Positions 19,198 through 25,825 of a DNA stretch of 64,000 bases are shown here, in pieces; the first letter of the stretch is position 1; each line of letters begins with the position of its first letter. The translations under genes were made by a program, and so were the position numbers. This DNA comes from Flavobacteriales bacterium (GTDB lineage Bacteria > Bacteroidota > Bacteroidia > Flavobacteriales_F > PHOS-HE28). The notes below the pieces were generated by a model. That model was not told where the DNA came from. It ran no database searches and saw only the letters and a program-made list of their open reading frames with translations. The stretch is taken from contig JAHCIA010000001.1 in assembly GCA_026129465.1 (NCBI GenBank), positions 2,431,964-2,495,963 on the forward strand. Direction: 5' to 3'.

Positions 19198-19236
19198 ACC
19201 TCTCTTCCTCCCCCCAACACGACCTTAGGGCTTAGC

Positions 19237-20229
19237 ATGTTCGTCCAACTAAAGCTCATCCACGAACCAAAGCCCAGCGAACGCTGGCAGCGCTTCTGGC
19301 ACCGGGTGTGGCCCTTGTACAAGCACTGGTTCCTGGGCGAGGGCATCGAGGCACGCGCGGGCTACACCACCAGCCTCAGCATGCTGCAGGAGCACATGCC
19401 CGAACTGCTTCCCACCTATGAGCGCCTCTGCGAACTGGCCGGCGGCGGCGATCTGGAAGCACGTTTCCTGAGCATGTGGAACCCGCCGCCATACATGGCC
19501 GGTTGCTCGCAGGCCGCCTGGGTGCGCGGCAACCCCACGCTGGTGCGCAACTACGACTACGACCCGCGCTTCTTCGACGGCCGCATGCGCCACACCGAAT
19601 GGCTGAGGCCCGTGATCGGCATCCAGGACAGCGCCTGGGGCATCCTCGATGGCATGAACGCCGACGGATTGGGCGCCGCGCTGGCCTTCGGGGGCCGCAA
19701 GGTGAGCGGCGAGGGCTTCGGCATCCCGCTGGTGGTGCGCTATGTGTTGGAGACCTGCGGCACCGTGGCCGAAGCGGTGGCGGCGATCACACGCATCCCC
19801 GTGCACATGAGCTACAACGTGCTGCTGCTGGACAAGAGCGGCCGCTACGCCGTGGTGTATGTGAATCCTGACCGACCCGCACGCGTAGTGGAGCGCCCCG
19901 TATGCACCAACCACCAGGACCAGGTGGAGTGGGACGAGTACGCCGCCTTCACACAGACCGTGTACCGCCGCGACTATCTGGAGGAGTGTCTGCTGGACGA
20001 GAACATCGACCGGGCACAACTGCTGAAGCGCTTCCTGCGTCCGCCCCTCTACCACCAGCAGTACCTGCGCGGCTTCGGCACACTCTATTCGGTGAGCTAC
20101 GACCTGGCCCAGGGCCGATTCAAGGTCTTCTGGCCCGGCAAGCAGGTGGAGGGCGGCTTCAAGAAGTTCGAAGAGCAGTTGGTGCAGGTGACGCTGCTGC
20201 GGCCCGTGGGGCGGTACATGGCGAAGTGA
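19237..20229 (+). CDS. C45-family acyltransferase/amidohydrolase (NTN-hydrolase fold)
   Basis: A 330-residue protein of the C45 autoproteolytic acyltransferase group (relatives: acyl-CoA:6-APA acyltransferase, N-beta-alanyl-amine hydrolases). The expected nucleophile is Cys90 in MAGCSQAAW, followed by the family's RNYDYDPRF and GMNADGLGAALAFGG strands and the substrate-side CTNHQDQ near 225. In the family this Cys becomes N-terminal after self-cleavage; here the processing site would be the Gly-Cys bond. Upstream in-frame codons exist to 19138 but lie in the repeat element; the 19237 ATG is the sensible start. It ends the six-gene amine/amide run and precedes a strong terminator. Confidence 0.82.
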   Translation: MFVQLKLIHEPKPSERWQRFWHRVWPLYKHWFLGEGIEARAGYTTSLSMLQEHMPELLPTYERLCELAGGGDLEARFLSMWNPPPYMAGCSQAAWVRGNPTLVRNYDYDPRFFDGRMRHTEWLRPVIGIQDSAWGILDGMNADGLGAALAFGGRKVSGEGFGIPLVVRYVLETCGTVAEAVAAITRIPVHMSYNVLLLDKSGRYAVVYVNPDRPARVVERPVCTNHQDQVEWDEYAAFTQTVYRRDYLEECLLDENIDRAQLLKRFLRPPLYHQQYLRGFGTLYSVSYDLAQGRFKVFWPGKQVEGGFKKFEEQLVQVTLLRPVGRYMAK

Positions 20230-20297: not shown

Positions 20298-20738
20298 CTA
20301 CCGGATCCGTGCGATCTCGCGTTTGCTCGCGACCATATAGCTCCGGTACTCGTCGCGGACCTCCTTGAACTTCTCCACGGTGCCGAAGTGCGCAATTGCA
20401 GCCTGGCGCCCTTTTACATTATCGGGGCGCACCTCCCAGTTCATGTCCTCGATGCCGCCTTCCATCTTCCAAACGATCATCACATCCCATTCGCCGGTGC
20501 TCATGCGCAGCCTCAGCACAGGCTGCGGCGTGCCCGCCTTTTCGTTGATCTTGTCCATATCGTCCCAGATCTGCTGGATCCGTGCCATTTTTCCAGCTTG
20601 GAATTTGATGTGAACGACACTGTGCCATTGGGGGTTGTCCAGGCGTTTGGCTTCAAGAACATCCTGGGCCAGGACGTTGGTGGACATTGACAGCCCGATG
20701 AACAGGGCTACTGCGAGGTAGAGGATCGTGTATTTCAT
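20298..20738 (-). CDS. Small secreted protein, family not recognised
   Basis: A 146-residue protein with a clear signal peptide (MKYTILYLAVALFIGLS to VLAQ). The mature part has a repeated alternation of charged and aromatic residues (WHSVVHIKFQAGKMARIQQIWDD; GEWDVMIVWKMEGG) that resembles a ferredoxin-like alpha-beta fold such as the dimeric alpha/beta-barrel (DUF1330/NIPSNAP) class, but this is a guess. Its base composition is a little more AT-rich than its neighbours. It is divergent from the propeller kinase, with the ACTACAATTA motif in the shared gap. The in-frame codons before 20738 are not needed. Confidence 0.65.
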   Translation of the reverse strand: MKYTILYLAVALFIGLSMSTNVLAQDVLEAKRLDNPQWHSVVHIKFQAGKMARIQQIWDDMDKINEKAGTPQPVLRLRMSTGEWDVMIVWKMEGGIEDMNWEVRPDNVKGRQAAIAHFGTVEKFKEVRDEYRSYMVASKREIARIR

Positions 20739-20805
20739 GGTATGGTGTGGTTGGATGTTTCCTGTCGCGGTCCAAACCAACGCACATCACGGGCGCCCAT
20801 CAAGT

Positions 20806-20819
20806 ACTACAATTAATAC
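20806..20819 (+). promoter_or_regulatory. Candidate regulator-binding motif, copy 1
   Basis: ACTACAATTAATAC lies in the 142-base divergent gap between the small secreted protein and the propeller kinase. A 13-of-14 match occurs in inverse orientation at 23937-23950, just before the response regulator gene. The site is AT-rich against a GC-rich background. Confidence 0.4.
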
Positions 20820-20880
20820 CGGCTCTGCTGAAAGCGTGGTATCGTATGCTTGTGGGGCCTTTTGCTGAACAAGCTCTTCC

Positions 20881-23800
20881 ATGCGTCATCTGCTCCTGAC
20901 CAGCCTGCTCATCCCAACGCACTGGTGCGGTGCACAAGGCATGGTGAAAGACCGCGAACTGGTGGTGTCGGTGCGCGCGTTCGGTGTTCCGGATGGCCTG
21001 CTTCATCGTCATGTTTGGCAGGTGGTGGAAGACCGGGATGGGTTCATCTGGATGGCCACATCGGGAGGCGCGCAACGTTTCGATGGGAACGTCTTCACCA
21101 GCTGGACCACCGCCGAAGGGCTTACCACCAATGCCATCGCGGCCATCTGGCCCGATGCCAAGGGCAACTTCTGGTTGATCTCCCAGGGGCTCTCGGAGAT
21201 GGGCACGGTGAACTCGATCGACATTCTGCACCCCCGCACCGGCGCGGTCCGCACTTTCGCGCAGCACTTCGGGGCCGATGTCCAGCTCCAGGCCAATGAG
21301 ATCTGCGGAAAGGCCATCGTCCTTGATGACAGCACCTTGGTGATGGGCGCAGCGGGGCGCTTGATCTTCTACGACAAGTCCGGTTTCCGCGAGCTGCCCG
21401 TCGCGGTGGATGGCATCCTCAGGCCGCTGATGATGGATCGGCAGGGGGCGGTCTGGTGCATGCGCTTCTTGCCCGGTGGACCCTACCTGGACCTGGTGAA
21501 GGTGGATCCCACGGGCAGGGTGGAGCGGGATCCGTCATCACCGTTCCGCACGGGCATCATTGGCGATGTGCAGGGCTGCGACATGCGCACCAAGGACCAC
21601 GGCTTCTACTTCGTGGCCGAGCAAGAGAACAAGAGCATCCATGAGTTCTGGATACCCCCCCAGGGACAGGTACGGCGCATGACCACGCGTCTGCCTGATG
21701 AGGCCATCGACCGGTTGTGGAAGCCATTGTTGATGCCACTTGGCAACGACCGCTGGCTGGTGGGTAACAGTGTTCGACAGATGCGGCCCGGTGACGACCC
21801 GTTGGCGGCACCGTTGCTACAGGGACTGGGCCCGCAATTGCCACTGGACCATGATGGCCCCATGCGGGCTTGGATGGACCAGCGCGGCAACATCTGGATC
21901 TGCGGTCAACTTGGCCTCTGGCAGTTACGCATCCGGGAAACGCGCTTCCAACGATGGCTTCAGAACCATGCCGGCAGGATCTCCGAGAGGAACAGCATCC
22001 GGGGAATGGCACTGATCGGCGACAGCTTGTTCGTGAATACGGAGAAGAACGGGCTCTGGCGCTTGGATAGCCGCAGTGGCGATGCCGTATGTCTCGAGGA
22101 CGGCAGTGGGTCGCTGCGCTATGGGTTGGCTTCCGATGGGCGTGGCGGCCTGTACGGCAGTTCGGGAAATGGACTGTACCACTGGAAGGACGGCAGGCTG
22201 CGCGGCACAGTGAGCACACCTTACAACATGGTGTGGAACATCCTGCCTCTGGAGGATGGCCGCCTGCTGTTGGGCACCCTCTTGGGTCTGGCTTGGAGCG
22301 ATACAACACTCGGGCATTACTCCCCCATCCCTCCTGCGGTACACGGCATGCCCGAAAGTTCACCAGTGAACCATTTGTGCAGGGATCCTCAAGGAAAAAT
22401 CTGGGCGAGCACCACCACGGGGCTGTTTGAACTCGATGCCGAAGGAGCACCCCTGGCCCGCTGGTGGATCGGCAGCACCACCAACCCGCTTCCAGCCGAT
22501 ATGTTCCACCATGTGTTCACCGACGATGACGGGATCATGTGGCTGGCCACCGCTTCCCACGGTCTGCTCCGATGGGATCGTGTTAGCGGGTCGGTGCGTG
22601 CCATCACCATGCGCGATGGCCTGCCCAGCAACGGCATTTATGCCACCTACGCCGACACACGCGGGAACCTCTGGCTGCCCACGGACAACGGCATTGCGCG
22701 CTATGTCCCCAACTCCGGACAGGTCGCGATCTTCAATGAGGAAGACGGCATCGCACACCACGAATTCAACAGGCTTGCCCACCTGCAGGGTCCCGATGGC
22801 ATGCTGTATTTCGGTGGCCTTGATGGGATCACGGTCTTTCATCCGGACAGTCTGTTGGAACGTACGGGCCGTGGCCATGCGCCCTTCGTCATCGCCAGCG
22901 TGCAGCAGTTCATCGGCGCACGGGACAAGCTGGAGGACCGCAGTTCCGAAGTGATCGGCAATGGTACCATCACCCTGCTGCCGAACGACCGCTTCTTCAC
23001 CCTGCGCATGGCACTGCTGAGCTACGAAGAACCCGGGAACATCCTCTACGGTTGGCGCGTCGATGGCATCGATCAGGATTGGAATCTGCAGCGGGAACCC
23101 ACGATCCGCTTCGCATCGCTGCCCTATGGAGAACATGTGCTCCGCCTGCGAGCCAAGGGTGCCGATGGGGTTTGGAACCCGAAGGAACTGTCACTGCTGG
23201 TCCGGATGGTTCGTCCATGGTATTTGCGCTGGTGGGCTTTTGCGTTGATGGCAGTGCTCATTTTTGCTTCGGTCTACGGCCTTTTCCGCTATCGGCTGGC
23301 ACGCGTGCGGGCCATGGTGCGCATGCGCGACCGCATCGCGCTGGACCTCCACGACGAGGTGGGCAGCACCCTCAGCAGTGTGGCGCTCTTCAGCACCGTG
23401 GTGAACCGCAGGGCAGCGGACCGCAGCCCGGAGGAGGGCGCCATGCTCCGCCGCATCGCGGAGAACAGCGCACAGGCCATGGAGAGCATGAACGACATCG
23501 TGTGGAGCGTGAACTCGCGCTACGACGACCTGGGCGATGTGCTGGACCGCATGCAGCAATATGCAGGGCCGCTGGCCGAAGCACAGGACTGGGACCTGCA
23601 CATCACCATGAGCGACGAACTGCGCAGCATGAAGCTGGGCATGAACGAGCGGAAGAACCTCTACCTGGTGTTCAAGGAGGCGGTGAACAACGCCGCCAAA
23701 TACGCACGCTGCGATCGCATGAACATCTCGGTGGCCCGCAAGGGGGATCTCATCGAGCTTTCGGTGGCGGACAATGGCGTGGGACTGGAGGTGGGGTCCA

Positions 23801-23940
23801 ACGGCGGCAGCGGGTTGGGCGGCAATGGCCTGCGCAGCATGGAACAACGGGCTGCGGACATCCGGGGCATATTGGAGGTACTTAGCGCGCCGGGCCAGGG
23901 CACCACCATCACCTTGCGTTTCAGGCCCCAGCGGGGGTAG
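20881..23940 (+). CDS. Two-component-regulator propeller sensor histidine kinase
   Basis: A 1019-residue one-protein sensor. A signal peptide (to about 19) is followed by about 14 Reg_prop-type propeller repeats (for example DRDGFIWMATSGGAQRFDG, DPQGKIWASTTTGLFELD, DTRGNLWLPTDNGIARY) over residues 30-680, a Y_Y_Y domain (about 690-775), one membrane helix (about 783-803), then the HisKA_3 domain with phospho-His824 in DLHDEVGSTLSS and a C-terminal HATPase (NNAAKYARCD, DNGVGLEV, GGNGLRSM). This plan is typical of Bacteroidota sensors related to hybrid glycan sensors but here without the receiver/AraC part; the receiver is the next gene. The ligand is unknown. Confidence 0.93.
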   Translation: MRHLLLTSLLIPTHWCGAQGMVKDRELVVSVRAFGVPDGLLHRHVWQVVEDRDGFIWMATSGGAQRFDGNVFTSWTTAEGLTTNAIAAIWPDAKGNFWLISQGLSEMGTVNSIDILHPRTGAVRTFAQHFGADVQLQANEICGKAIVLDDSTLVMGAAGRLIFYDKSGFRELPVAVDGILRPLMMDRQGAVWCMRFLPGGPYLDLVKVDPTGRVERDPSSPFRTGIIGDVQGCDMRTKDHGFYFVAEQENKSIHEFWIPPQGQVRRMTTRLPDEAIDRLWKPLLMPLGNDRWLVGNSVRQMRPGDDPLAAPLLQGLGPQLPLDHDGPMRAWMDQRGNIWICGQLGLWQLRIRETRFQRWLQNHAGRISERNSIRGMALIGDSLFVNTEKNGLWRLDSRSGDAVCLEDGSGSLRYGLASDGRGGLYGSSGNGLYHWKDGRLRGTVSTPYNMVWNILPLEDGRLLLGTLLGLAWSDTTLGHYSPIPPAVHGMPESSPVNHLCRDPQGKIWASTTTGLFELDAEGAPLARWWIGSTTNPLPADMFHHVFTDDDGIMWLATASHGLLRWDRVSGSVRAITMRDGLPSNGIYATYADTRGNLWLPTDNGIARYVPNSGQVAIFNEEDGIAHHEFNRLAHLQGPDGMLYFGGLDGITVFHPDSLLERTGRGHAPFVIASVQQFIGARDKLEDRSSEVIGNGTITLLPNDRFFTLRMALLSYEEPGNILYGWRVDGIDQDWNLQREPTIRFASLPYGEHVLRLRAKGADGVWNPKELSLLVRMVRPWYLRWWAFALMAVLIFASVYGLFRYRLARVRAMVRMRDRIALDLHDEVGSTLSSVALFSTVVNRRAADRSPEEGAMLRRIAENSAQAMESMNDIVWSVNSRYDDLGDVLDRMQQYAGPLAEAQDWDLHITMSDELRSMKLGMNERKNLYLVFKEAVNNAAKYARCDRMNISVARKGDLIELSVADNGVGLEVGSNGGSGLGGNGLRSMEQRAADIRGILEVLSAPGQGTTITLRFRPQRG

Positions 23941-23950
23941 TAATTGTAGT
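23937..23950 (-). promoter_or_regulatory. Candidate regulator-binding motif, copy 2
   Basis: On the minus strand this reads ACTACAATTACTAC. It overlaps the kinase stop codon and lies 40 bases before the response regulator ATG. It matches copy 1 at 20806 in 13 of 14 bases, in inverse orientation. Confidence 0.4.
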
Positions 23951-23989
23951 CATTGGCAAAGGCGCTTCCGGGTGTGTTCCTTTGAAGGG

Positions 23990-24625
23990 ATGATACGCGT
24001 GGCCCTTTTTGATGACAACCGCGAGCAGCGTGATGCCCTGTGCGCACTGCTGGACGATGTGGACGCCACCACCTGTGCTGGTGCCTTCGCCGATGCGCGC
24101 AACGCCGTGGCCGATGTGGAGGCCTGCCTCCCCGATGTGGTGTTGATGGACATCGACATGCCCGGTATCAACGGCATACAAGCCACCGCCGAGCTACGCC
24201 AGAAGTTCACCGACCTGCGCGTCATCATGCTCACGGTGATCGAGGACGACGACCGCATCTTCGCCGCCATCCGCGCCGGTGCCGATGGCTACTTCCTTAA
24301 ACAGACCGCACCACTGAAGTTGATCGACGGCATCGCCGAGGCCATGGAGGGTGGCGCACCCATGAGCCCCGGTGTGGCGCGTCGCGTACTGGGCATGGTA
24401 CACGGCCCCGATCGCGAAAAGGAAGCGGAGAAATTCCAACTCACCGAACGCGAACACGAGATACTGGGCTTGCTTGTGAAAGGCTGGACCTACAAGCGCA
24501 TCGCCGCCGAACTGGGCATCGCTTTCCCTACGGTGAACAAGCATGTGGGCCATGTGTACGTGAAGCTGCGCGTGAAGAGCGTGGGCGAGGCCGTGGCACT
24601 GGCCGTGCGTAGGGGGTTGGCCTAA
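23990..24625 (+). CDS. NarL/FixJ-type response regulator
   Basis: A 211-residue regulator, partner of the propeller kinase. The receiver has FDDNREQ near residue 8, phospho-acceptor Asp54 in VVLMDIDMPG and Lys in YFLKQ. The LuxR-type helix-turn-helix covers about 145-208 (LTEREHEILGLLVKGWTYKRIAAELGI, TVNKHVGHVYVKL). It starts 49 bases after the kinase stop, so co-transcription is likely, but the ACTACAATTA motif in that gap could give it its own control. The frame stays open upstream into the kinase gene; the 23990 ATG fits the family start. Confidence 0.92.
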   Translation: MIRVALFDDNREQRDALCALLDDVDATTCAGAFADARNAVADVEACLPDVVLMDIDMPGINGIQATAELRQKFTDLRVIMLTVIEDDDRIFAAIRAGADGYFLKQTAPLKLIDGIAEAMEGGAPMSPGVARRVLGMVHGPDREKEAEKFQLTEREHEILGLLVKGWTYKRIAAELGIAFPTVNKHVGHVYVKLRVKSVGEAVALAVRRGLA

Positions 24626-24650: not shown

Positions 24651-24677
24651 AGCCTCTAAGGGCGCATTCAAGAGGCT
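24651..24677. terminator. Weak convergent hairpin
   Basis: A perfect 7-base repeat (AGCCTCT and AGAGGCT) around a 13-base loop between the response regulator and the serine hydrolase, overlapping the latter's stop. No clear T run. Confidence 0.3.
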
Positions 24678-25825
24678 TTCGACGATGCCAATACCCGCGC
24701 GATGGCGACCCACTCGAACACGTCCGTGGGGTGCCCCGTGGCATGTACCTCCTCACGCTTCATGCCCATGCGCACCAGCACCAATCGCTCATGCGGTACC
24801 ACCACCACATACTGGCCGTGGAAGCCGCGTGCGTACCAGATGGGTTCGCCGTCCAGTTCGGCCAACCACCAGTAATAGCCATAGCGTCGGTTGGGGCCGT
24901 CCTTGTCCATGATCGCTGCCGGGGTGATCGAAGCCTGCCAGTATTCGAGCGGCACGATCTGGCGTCCGTTCCAGCGGCCGCTGTCGAGGTACAACTGGCC
25001 CAGCCGGGCGAAGTCGCGCGCCGTGGCATAGAGGCAGCAGAAGTGCTTGAGGTCGCCATCCGGGCGGTCCTTGCCCCAGTAGGCGGTGTGCTCGGCCTGC
25101 AGCGGGGCCCAGATCTTCTCGCGAACCAGTCGGTCCAGGTCGCGTCCATAGGCGGCTTCGAGCACTTCGCCCATGATCTGCGTGCTGCCGCTGATGTACT
25201 CGAAGCGCTTGCCGGGCGCTTCCGTGCAGGGGAGCGACATGCTCAGCTCGCGCACGTTGCGACCGTAGTAGCCTTTGGCGTTCTCACCGAAAGGGTTGGG
25301 CTTCTCGTTCCAGTCCAATCCAGTGCTCATGGTCAGCAGGTGCCACAGGTTGATCTTCGCCCTGCAGCCCTCCTTGAACTCCGGCAGAAAATCACCCACC
25401 GGCTGGAATACGCTTTGGATCACCCCTTCGTCCATGGCCATGCCCACCAGGATGCTCACATAGCTTTTCGCGATGCTGAAGGCGTTCATGGTGCTGTCCT
25501 CCGCCCAGCCGTCGAAGTAACGCTCAAAGAGCAGGCTGTCGTGATGCACCACCACGAAAGCCGCGCTGTACAACGCTTTCAAGCGATCCTCCTGTGCGGC
25601 GTCCAGATCGACCCCCCCATACCGTACGCTCTTCGGCCAGGGCCGTGGCGCATCCGCGGGGATCGTCGCATACGGGAAGAAGCTGCGGTCGTCGATCTCC
25701 GGTGCGTCACGGCCGATCAGATAGGTGTACCGCAACCCGCGGAACAGGTGCGCGTTGCCGGTGAGGTGGACCAGCGCGAAGAAGGCCAGCACGATGGCGG
25801 CGAGCCAGAGAAATATCCTGCGCAT
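24668..25825 (-). CDS. Serine hydrolase of the class C beta-lactamase family
   Basis: A 385-residue membrane-anchored or exported enzyme (N-terminal helix MRRIFLWLAAIVLAFFALVHL). The catalytic S-x-x-K is Ser117-Lys120 in NAFSIAKSYVS. The expected tyrosine region FEYISGSTQIMG lies near 204 and the third box is ARGFHGQYVVVV near 345. The family includes D-Ala carboxypeptidases, esterases and class C beta-lactamases; nothing here points to antibiotic hydrolysis. It is convergent with the response regulator; lipB lies upstream in the same direction 23 bases away, and the two could share a transcript. Confidence 0.85.
   Translation of the reverse strand: MRRIFLWLAAIVLAFFALVHLTGNAHLFRGLRYTYLIGRDAPEIDDRSFFPYATIPADAPRPWPKSVRYGGVDLDAAQEDRLKALYSAAFVVVHHDSLLFERYFDGWAEDSTMNAFSIAKSYVSILVGMAMDEGVIQSVFQPVGDFLPEFKEGCRAKINLWHLLTMSTGLDWNEKPNPFGENAKGYYGRNVRELSMSLPCTEAPGKRFEYISGSTQIMGEVLEAAYGRDLDRLVREKIWAPLQAEHTAYWGKDRPDGDLKHFCCLYATARDFARLGQLYLDSGRWNGRQIVPLEYWQASITPAAIMDKDGPNRRYGYYWWLAELDGEPIWYARGFHGQYVVVVPHERLVLVRMGMKREEVHATGHPTDVFEWVAIARVLASSKAS

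Follow-up and report, generated by a model that had tools for sequence, protein, structure and literature searches.

The 64-kb window (the whole stretch of DNA that was analysed) holds a large sensor kinase gene, an adjacent response regulator gene and a small gene that diverges from them:

20298–20738, minus strand: divergent small secreted protein, 146 aa, the predicted target; N-terminal signal-peptide-like stretch by eye
20881–23940, plus strand: sensor histidine kinase, 1019 aa, with Reg_prop propeller, Y_Y_Y, HisKA_3 and HATPase_c
23990–24625, plus strand: NarL/LuxR-type response regulator, 211 aa, with Response_reg and GerE; proposed binder of both operators described below

The regulator ATG lies 49 nt past the kinase stop codon. 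Pfam matches above the cut-offs were Response_reg and GerE in the regulator and HisKA_3 and HATPase_c in the kinase, and the best solved relatives of the regulator include VraR, NarL and DevR. By their domains, the two proteins are a NarL/LuxR-type (REC-GerE) two-component system with a HisKA_3 kinase, for which phosphotransfer is predicted. Propeller-sensor relatives are numerous, as the window's genome alone has 25 stretches matching the kinase, itself included. The 146-aa protein matched no Pfam family at 0.001. Homologues of it were found in 3 of 44 genus relatives, one of them marginal, and the two regions fetched around such homologues (G030, 6.4 kb; G034, 11.1 kb) contained no relatives of the kinase or regulator.

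A repeated word brackets the kinase gene

A sequence-only reading had described an inverted 14-base motif on either side of the kinase gene, and its coordinates and single difference were confirmed: the word ACTACAATTA(A/C)TAC occurs at 20806–20819 (plus strand) and, inverted and one base apart, at 23937–23950 (minus strand). The second copy does precede the response regulator, as that reading had it, but it also overlaps the kinase stop codon (TAG, 23938–23940). The motif had been called AT-rich in GC-rich surroundings, and region 20739–20880 is indeed 52% GC, against 63.5% for the window. The match between the copies extends beyond 14 bases (GTAkTAATTGTAGTmmTTG, 16 of 19 identical), and the original motif proved to be the core of a 16-bp site at both places. 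Within the window there were 2 exact matches and 6 with at most 3 mismatches, compared with a shuffle mean of 0.85. A 13/14 match between regions 23890–23989 and 20739–20880 was reached by 5 of 1,000 shuffles; this probability of ∼0.005, for a chosen pair of short regions, is suggestive, not decisive.

The genome was searched for the motif, as had been proposed. The whole 3.88-Mb genome has two exact copies of ACTACAATTA(A/C)TAC, both at the kinase-regulator locus; near matches (one with 1 mismatch and fifteen with 2 in the rest of the genome) were not in excess, with a total of 18 against 36 for the reversed control. All 16 fall within open frames of 321 codons or more, which is weak evidence because the DNA is GC-rich and the exact sites themselves sit under chance open frames, one of 244 and one of 500 codons. 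Scanned in one orientation, none of the 16 is accompanied by a full TnnnTTTG at promoter distance. When the two copies were combined into a longer pattern (word, TTG and TnnnTTTG), the genome gave no third match, and the reversed control gave no match at all. As near matches are fewer than in the control and lack the −7 box in the orientation scanned, we rejected the idea that the window's word marks a regulon spread over the genome; the two sites appear to form a local circuit.

The inverted copies might also be the ends of a mobile cassette, as they enclose exactly one gene. We give this almost no credence, since the kinase stop codon lies within one copy, the bracketed segment is taken up by the kinase frame without room for a transposase, the genome has no further exact copies of the ends, and 19 of 21 related loci hold kinase and regulator together.

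Both copies abut promoter-like elements

Each 16-bp site lies within a recurring layout:

20773–20780, minus strand: −7 box TTGGTTTG of the divergent promoter, 23 nt from operator 1
20801–20803, minus strand: TTG right after operator 1, −33-like element of the divergent promoter
20804–20819, minus strand: putative operator 1, 16 bp, GTATTAATTGTAGTAC on the minus strand, in the gap between kinase and divergent gene; holds the 20806–20819 motif; dyad with 5 of 8 pairs
20845–20852, plus strand: candidate kinase-promoter −7 box TATGCTTG, 25 nt from operator 1; weaker match
23937–23952, plus strand: putative operator 2, GTAGTAATTGTAGTCA, preceding the regulator and overlapping the kinase stop; holds the 23937–23950 motif; dyad with 3 of 8 pairs
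23953–23955, plus strand: TTG right after operator 2, −33-like element
23977–23984, plus strand: −7 box TTCCTTTG of the regulator promoter, 24 nt from operator 2

At the regulator and divergent promoters the site is followed by TTG and, after 20–21 nt, by a Bacteroidota-like −7 box, TnnnTTTG, which is scarce in the window (26 in 128,000 positions on both strands). The consensus quoted for Bacteroidota promoters in PMC6847099 is TTTG/TAnnTTTG; TTCCTTTG and TTGGTTTG lack the A at the second position of TAnnTTTG, and in the kinase candidate TATGCTTG a C replaces the first T of TTTG. By the −7 numbering of that paper, the site centres fall at −44.5, −43.5 and −45.5 in the window's three promoters, abutting the upstream promoter element, and the regulator transcript is predicted to start at ∼23989, adjoining its ATG (23990). 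No TTG was found after the site towards the kinase. Judged by orientation and spacing, the first copy fits the divergent gene best, in line with the earlier suggestion that the secreted protein is a possible target; the kinase promoter is the least certain of the three, and TATGCTTG may serve as its −7 box. A generic sigma-70 promoter scan returned 2 matches against 1.5 expected, neither at the sites, and none of the listed terminator-like sites overlaps the repeats, which set aside a terminator reading.

The copies do lie within promoter-like sequence, and TTG plus TnnnTTTG resembles the TTTG/TAnnTTTG elements quoted in PMC6847099, so the repeats could be nothing more than core −33/−7 elements for the housekeeping sigma factor, without a regulator of their own. 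This is very improbable in our estimate: the word sits upstream of the −33 and has no further exact copy in the genome, where core elements would be expected at many promoters, and PMC6847099 describes the −33 motif as much less evident in F. johnsoniae.

As dyads the window's sites are weak (3/8 and 5/8 pairs), and in a palindrome scan its regulator promoter did not stand out: 57 of 60 shuffles equalled or beat it. A reading of the site as a direct repeat (GTAGTAATT GTAGTCATT), judged by eye, was dropped because relatives show dyads.

Regulator promoters of relatives carry dyads at the same position

In the palindrome scan, 49 of the 94 scored regulator promoters (95 were given) met a cut of at most 3/60 shuffles, and the spacing to the −7 box was 22 or 23 nt in 43 of these 49, though 20–27 nt was allowed. 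With spacings of 14–34 nt allowed, 43 of 75 loci scored at least 11, compared with 10 of 73 kinase-interior controls and 199 of 1,500 shuffles; spacings of 22–24 nt accounted for 25 of the 43 high-scoring loci and 26 of the 199 high-scoring shuffles. These 75 loci came from a scan of public contigs and lie mostly outside the genus, although at least two (L168 and L171) are, to judge from their coordinates, other regulators of G023 and G013. Five loci, L104–L108, were left out here, in the palindrome scan and in the wider kinase-side comparison below, as their contigs match in length genus contigs already used (G017:C22, G005:C145, G060:C14, G058:C353, G023:C12). Many of the loci are close kin (Dyadobacter, Hymenobacter, Sediminibacterium; G005 and G017), so the promoter-scan counts are not independent.

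At the same distance (mostly 22–23 nt before the −7 box, centre ∼−43.5), many relatives have 16-bp dyads that differ in sequence. Three regulator orthologues have CTACA-type sites resembling the window's, paralogues have TCATTGGnnCCAATGA, and Chitinophagaceae have TCACAT....ATGTGA. The three orthologues (G060, G058a and G023; regulators 64–68% identical) have TGAGTGGATGTAG, or a variant of it, with a spacing of exactly 23 nt and with TGTAG in register with the window's site, and they too failed the palindrome scan (13/60, 33/60 and 13/60 shuffles, respectively). The two closest orthologues, G005 and G017 (regulators 74% identical), carry another site ahead of the regulator gene. In the window's own genome, five regulators were read among the 23 other matches, and one (L185) showed a clear dyad by eye, with a weak −7 box. 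The divergent site of G058b departs from the rule, with a spacing of 20 and 2 of 8 pairs.

We then compared the regions upstream of kinase and regulator. With named operators, 12 of 16 genus pairs shared a site at a shuffle fraction of at most 0.04; G008b, for which no operator could be named, was omitted. In this comparison, as in the helix correlation below and the table of dyad pairs and spacings, operators were hand-picked after the regions had been viewed. An unsupervised test, free of operator choice, is weaker: 7 of 17 pairs reached at most 5/100 shuffles, the window itself scoring 2/100. G060 and G023 repeat their related word in inverted form before the kinase, an arrangement like the window's. 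Beside the G060 kinase-side copy, no −7 box stands where one would be expected. No matching site was found before the kinase in G005 and G017, and G009 and G058b also failed. In the wider set, limited to loci whose regulator promoter scored at least 11, the site was repeated upstream of the kinase in only 6 of 36 testable loci (at most 5/100 shuffles).

The genus genomes contain 15 exact copies of TCATTGGnnCCAATGA, spread over 8 of the 45, and none of the reversed control. By eye, 14 of the 15 precede one of three kinds of gene: regulators (5), propeller kinases (4) and other genes whose products begin in the manner of exported proteins (5). Among the last five neighbours, L209 is doubtful. 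A −7 box of at least 5/6 letters stands at 21–23 nt from 8 of the 15 sites; among the five not associated with a kinase or regulator gene, only one is followed by a good −7 box within 20–27 nt.

These comparisons bear on whether the window's word is shared by coincidence between two AT-rich promoter stretches. The shuffles that reach 13/14 and the many places offered by 64 kb leave room for this, as do the lack of excess near matches elsewhere and the failed dyad scan of the window's promoter. Both copies are nonetheless followed by TTG and the rare TnnnTTTG at the spacing seen in relatives, and the inverted arrangement recurs, with a related word, in two orthologues, so we regard coincidence as improbable.

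Operator similarity followed regulator similarity, with partial correlations of 0.34 for the receiver domain and 0.24 for the recognition helix, the latter reached by none of 5,000 permutations (42 operators assigned by hand). As the receiver value is not smaller, the helix was not singled out as the specific determinant of the operator, and overall relatedness of the regulators may account for the similarity.

Discussion

We consider it likely, from sequence, that the word is the operator of the regulator at 23990–24625, providing local autoregulation and control of the adjacent secreted protein and possibly of the kinase. The sequence-only reading had placed the motif where autoregulation would act, and this reading has gained ground: the word stands 23–24 nt before TnnnTTTG at the regulator and divergent genes, and many relatives have a dyad at this position of the regulator promoter that, within the genus, often matches one before the kinase. 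From position and conservation we infer that the window's regulator binds these sites. The stimulated propeller kinase would phosphorylate the NarL-type regulator, a dimer of which would bind the 16-bp site. With its centre at ∼−44, this site adjoins, on the upstream side, the −33 position of a promoter of the Bacteroidota housekeeping type, and there the dimer would activate RNA polymerase. The site in the 3′ end of the kinase gene would drive the regulator gene, and the one between kinase and divergent gene would drive the secreted protein and possibly the kinase, giving a self-amplifying sensor module with an adjacent exported output.

Less probably, the site belongs to another regulator, or the regulator represses from it, and the kinase-regulator pair is one target among others. 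The window's sites are poor dyads whose binding is predicted, and operator similarity follows how closely the regulators are related, without pointing specifically to the DNA-reading helix; these points are compatible with such a reading. We find it rather unlikely, as the sites are confined to this locus and genus pairs differ in site sequence at a nearly fixed position, which fits each pair's own regulator. As for repression, a site abutting the −33/−35 is an activator position for NarL (PMC7419079), though repressors can sit there.

A broader version of the local autoregulatory circuit, which we hold to be somewhat better than an even bet, would be that regulators of this subfamily, throughout the Bacteroidota, recognise a private 16-bp dyad at a near-fixed position (∼−43.5, abutting the −33 of TAnnTTTG promoters). 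Genus pairs would mostly repeat the dyad before the kinase (12/16 named, 7/17 unsupervised), often beside an exported-protein gene, forming self-contained modules in which the operator varies from pair to pair and the geometry is constant. To our knowledge, the targets of such propeller sensors are mostly unknown. If the operator is recognisable by its position in the regulator's own promoter, the outputs of many such sensors become predictable from sequence; if the dyad is private, inspecting the promoter of an uncharacterised pair could reveal its operator, which could then guide a search for targets, as four extra TCATTGGnnCCAATGA sites in genome G008 suggest. For the window this yields a concrete circuit of one sensor, one regulator and one small secreted protein. 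Among the publications listed as matches (titles and starts of abstracts), none dealt with operators of propeller-kinase/NarL pairs in Bacteroidota, from which we claim no absence from print.

The closest parallel in geometry is NarL, which at E. coli yeaR and ogt acts from a 7-2-7 dyad abutting the −35, centred at −44.5 at ogt (PMC7419079). Like NarL at yeaR-yoaG and ogt, the window would pair a NarL-type regulator with two 7-base elements and a 2-bp gap (16 bp), centred at ∼−43.5 to −44.5. The two inverted half-sites with a short gap are clear in many relatives; the window's own, at 3/8 and 5/8 pairs, fall below the scan cut. Unlike the NarL case, the operator sequence is different, the promoter is of the TAnnTTTG type and the dyad is imperfect, and whereas NarL acts at many promoters, the exact word is found in the window's genome at local genes only.

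Several other systems share parts of this arrangement. The Bacteroides hybrid two-component systems have the same Reg_prop/Y_Y_Y sensor architecture, but in the window the two functions are split between a kinase and a regulator protein, and the latter has a GerE DNA-binding domain in place of an AraC-type one. Porphyromonas gingivalis FimS/FimR, a LuxR-type pair, is likewise a Bacteroidota two-component pair, one that controls surface structures. VraR, LiaR, DesR and DevR belong to autoregulated NarL-family systems, and VraR, DevR and DesR are among the solved relatives of the window's regulator. As in these systems, a HisKA_3-type kinase is encoded beside a NarL/LuxR-type regulator that, in the window, is predicted to bind its own promoter; the window differs in its large propeller sensor (Reg_prop/Y_Y_Y) and in its predicted extra target, the adjacent exported protein.

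Motif copies in two putative promoters of a sensor module

The 14-base motif that a sequence-only reading had placed on either side of a propeller kinase gene was found exactly at 20806-20819 (+) and 23937-23950 (-). The features are as follows:

20298-20738, -: divergent small gene, 146 aa, signal-peptide-like start (judged by eye)
20806-20819, +: first motif copy, ACTACAATTAATAC
20881-23940: sensor kinase, 1019 aa (Pfam Reg_prop, Y_Y_Y, HisKA_3, HATPase_c)
23937-23950, -: second motif copy, ACTACAATTACTAC
23990-24625: NarL/LuxR-type regulator, 211 aa (Pfam Response_reg, GerE)

The first copy lies between the divergent small gene and the kinase gene; the second shares bases with the kinase stop codon and lies ahead of the regulator gene. 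VraR, NarL and DevR are the best solved relatives of the regulator, and Pfam at 0.001 gave no family for the 146-aa product. Neighbours of the module encode an AAT-domain protein (19234-20226, +; PF03417) and a beta-lactamase-family protein (24668-25825, -; PF00144).

A search of the whole genome (3,875,355 bases), also proposed in that reading, returned no exact match besides the two window copies. With up to two mismatches, 18 matches were obtained versus 36 with the reversed pattern, so look-alikes are not in excess. None of the other 16 near matches had a full TnnnTTTG box after it in the single orientation examined. All 16 lay within open frames 321 codons long or longer, which is weakly informative here because both exact sites also sit under chance frames. 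A 13/14 match between the two short regions, in either orientation, arose in 5 of 1,000 shuffles, which points beyond chance without settling the matter.

The telling feature of the copies is their position. Read toward the regulator and toward the divergent gene, both have the same orientation and a common continuation, GTAkTAATTGTAGT-mm-TTG, followed after 21 or 20 nt by TTCCTTTG or TTGGTTTG. Bacteroidota promoters are described as TTTG/TAnnTTTG, with the -7 box covering -12 to -5 (PMC6847099, PMC9723704), and TnnnTTTG is rare in the window (26 in 128,000 positions, both strands). On the published -7 scale, the centre of the 16-bp site falls at -44.5 ahead of the regulator gene and at -43.5 ahead of the divergent gene. 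The best -7 candidate of the putative kinase promoter, TATGCTTG at 20845-20852, puts the centre at -45.5 and lacks the TTG. A pattern composed from both copies, TAATTGTAGTNNTTGN{18,23}TNNNTTTG, matched nowhere else in the genome, and its reversed control gave zero. Dyad pairing in the window sites extends to only 3/8 and 5/8 positions.

The -7 box ends merely 4-6 nt ahead of the regulator ATG in the window (23977-23990) and in the genus genomes G005, G017, G007, G009 and G064, so that regulator mRNA from such a promoter would be (nearly) leaderless; leaders exceed 10 nt in 87% of predicted F. johnsoniae transcripts (PMC6847099).

Layout and words in relatives

Relatives of the kinase and regulator are present throughout the genus and beyond. 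For three regulator orthologues (G060, G058a and G023; 64-68% identity), TGAGTGGATGTAGTGA or a close variant precedes an nnnnTTTG box by exactly 23 nt, and TGTAG is common to these sites and the window's, in register. The site is repeated inverted upstream of the kinase in G060 and G023 (14/16 and 13/16 bases matching); on the divergent side at 23 nt, the G023 copy has a -7-like box, TTCCTTCG, and the G060 copy has none. By eye, an apparent second word, TGAATGGATCCAACGA then TTG, lies nearer the divergent gene upstream of the G060 kinase (locus L079).

Paralogous pairs carry other words, often TCATTGGnnCCAATGA, with 22-23 nt separating them from TAGYTTTG or a box like it. In a more distant pair (G007), a divergent gene has TCGAGAACATTCTCGA 23 nt ahead of its -7, and the copy preceding the regulator is decayed. 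Regulator promoters in a wider contig scan showed TCACATnnnnATGTGA in Chitinophagaceae and Hymenobacter, TGGCAAATATTTGCTA in Dyadobacter, and also TTACCCnnnnGGGTAA-like words and others. Of 23 other matches in the window's genome, five regulators were read and one, a paralogue, had the layout: at ~5801 of locus L185, a dyad, TAGAACAAATGTTCTA, with TTG stands 24 nt before a weak -7, CACCTTCG, arranged as in the window with a different word. The sequence of the site tracks overall regulator relatedness, the DNA-reading helix not being distinct from the receiver domain.

A dyad scan was entered with 95 regulator promoters, 94 of them scorable; 49 reached the cut (at most 3/60 shuffles), 43 of these spaced at 22 or 23 nt. 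Three of the 49, at spacing 27, carry sites of this type read with a four-base offset (23 in another scan). The window's regulator promoter failed (57/60 shuffles), as did those of G060, G058a and G023 because of weak dyads; these four sites are supported through position and shared sequence. When spacings of 14-34 were allowed at 75 loci taken from the scan of public contigs, 43 scored at least 11, versus 10/73 kinase-interior controls and 199/1500 shuffles, and 25 of these 43 were spaced at 22-24 nt, versus 26 of the 199 high-scoring shuffles.

With operators named by the author, 12 of 16 kinase-upstream/regulator-upstream pairs matched at a shuffle fraction no higher than 0.04; the 17th pair, G008b, was excluded as no operator could be named. 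The four failures were the closest orthologues, G005 and G017, and also G009 and G058b. An unsupervised best 16-mer placed 7/17 pairs at no more than 5/100 shuffles, and in a wider set the site was repeated upstream of the kinase at only 6/36 loci.

TCATTGGnnCCAATGA sites across the genus

Among 45 genus genomes, 8 contain the palindrome TCATTGGnnCCAATGA in exact form, at 15 sites in all (reversed control, 0). By eye, five precede a regulator, four a propeller kinase and five other genes with exported-like product starts (locus L209 doubtful), the exception being in G016. A -7 box of at least 5/6 letters lies at 21-23 nt in 8/15 sites, and in only one of the five situated away from kinase and regulator genes. 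Genome G008 has six exact sites (L204, L208-L212): apart from those at its C9 kinase-regulator locus, there are four, on contigs C10, C13, C17 and C52, the last carrying two other pairs. Three of the four precede genes with clearly exported-like products and the fourth is doubtful, which suggests a small regulon.

In six hand-picked tandem cases (L096, L092, L200, L208, L212, L203), a second TCATTGG word follows exactly 32 bp on in five and 34 in the sixth; 32 bp is about three helical turns. A stretch F(N/S)YQ(A/G)V(A/V/I)R(D/N) follows the signal peptide in exported-looking products of divergent or site-linked genes, upstream of kinases in G013 (L093), G008b (L090), G008c (L091) and G025 (L092) and at G008:C52 (L212); these proteins apparently form one family.

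Homologues of the window's small secreted protein were found in 3/44 genus relatives, one marginal, and the two fetched had no kinase or regulator relatives beside them; the output gene therefore varies among species.

A probably self-activating module of a known kind

The computed position, uniqueness and conserved layout of the sites support the sequence-only reading's idea that autoregulation acts here: the motif lies in the putative promoters of the regulator and of the divergent gene, and relatives keep the layout. Bound at the site, presumably when phosphorylated, the regulator would activate its own gene and the divergent gene for the secreted protein; the kinase gene may also be a target. 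Against this reading stand the imperfect pairing of the window's sites, the link of site sequence to overall regulator relatedness, the layout being seen in one of five other regulators, and the change of output gene among species. The locus reads as a local sensor module that probably activates itself and has the exported neighbour as its output. More interesting than this single locus, which belongs to a kind already known, is the wider rule of a private dyad whose promoter position hardly varies; a limited literature search found no paper on it. At yeaR, one 7-2-7 NarL site just upstream of -35 is described as sufficient, and at ogt one NarL site abuts -35, centred at -44.5 (PMC7419079). 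The arrangement in the window resembles that of NarL at these simple promoters, and by this likeness the motif word is most likely the operator of the adjacent regulator (23990-24625).
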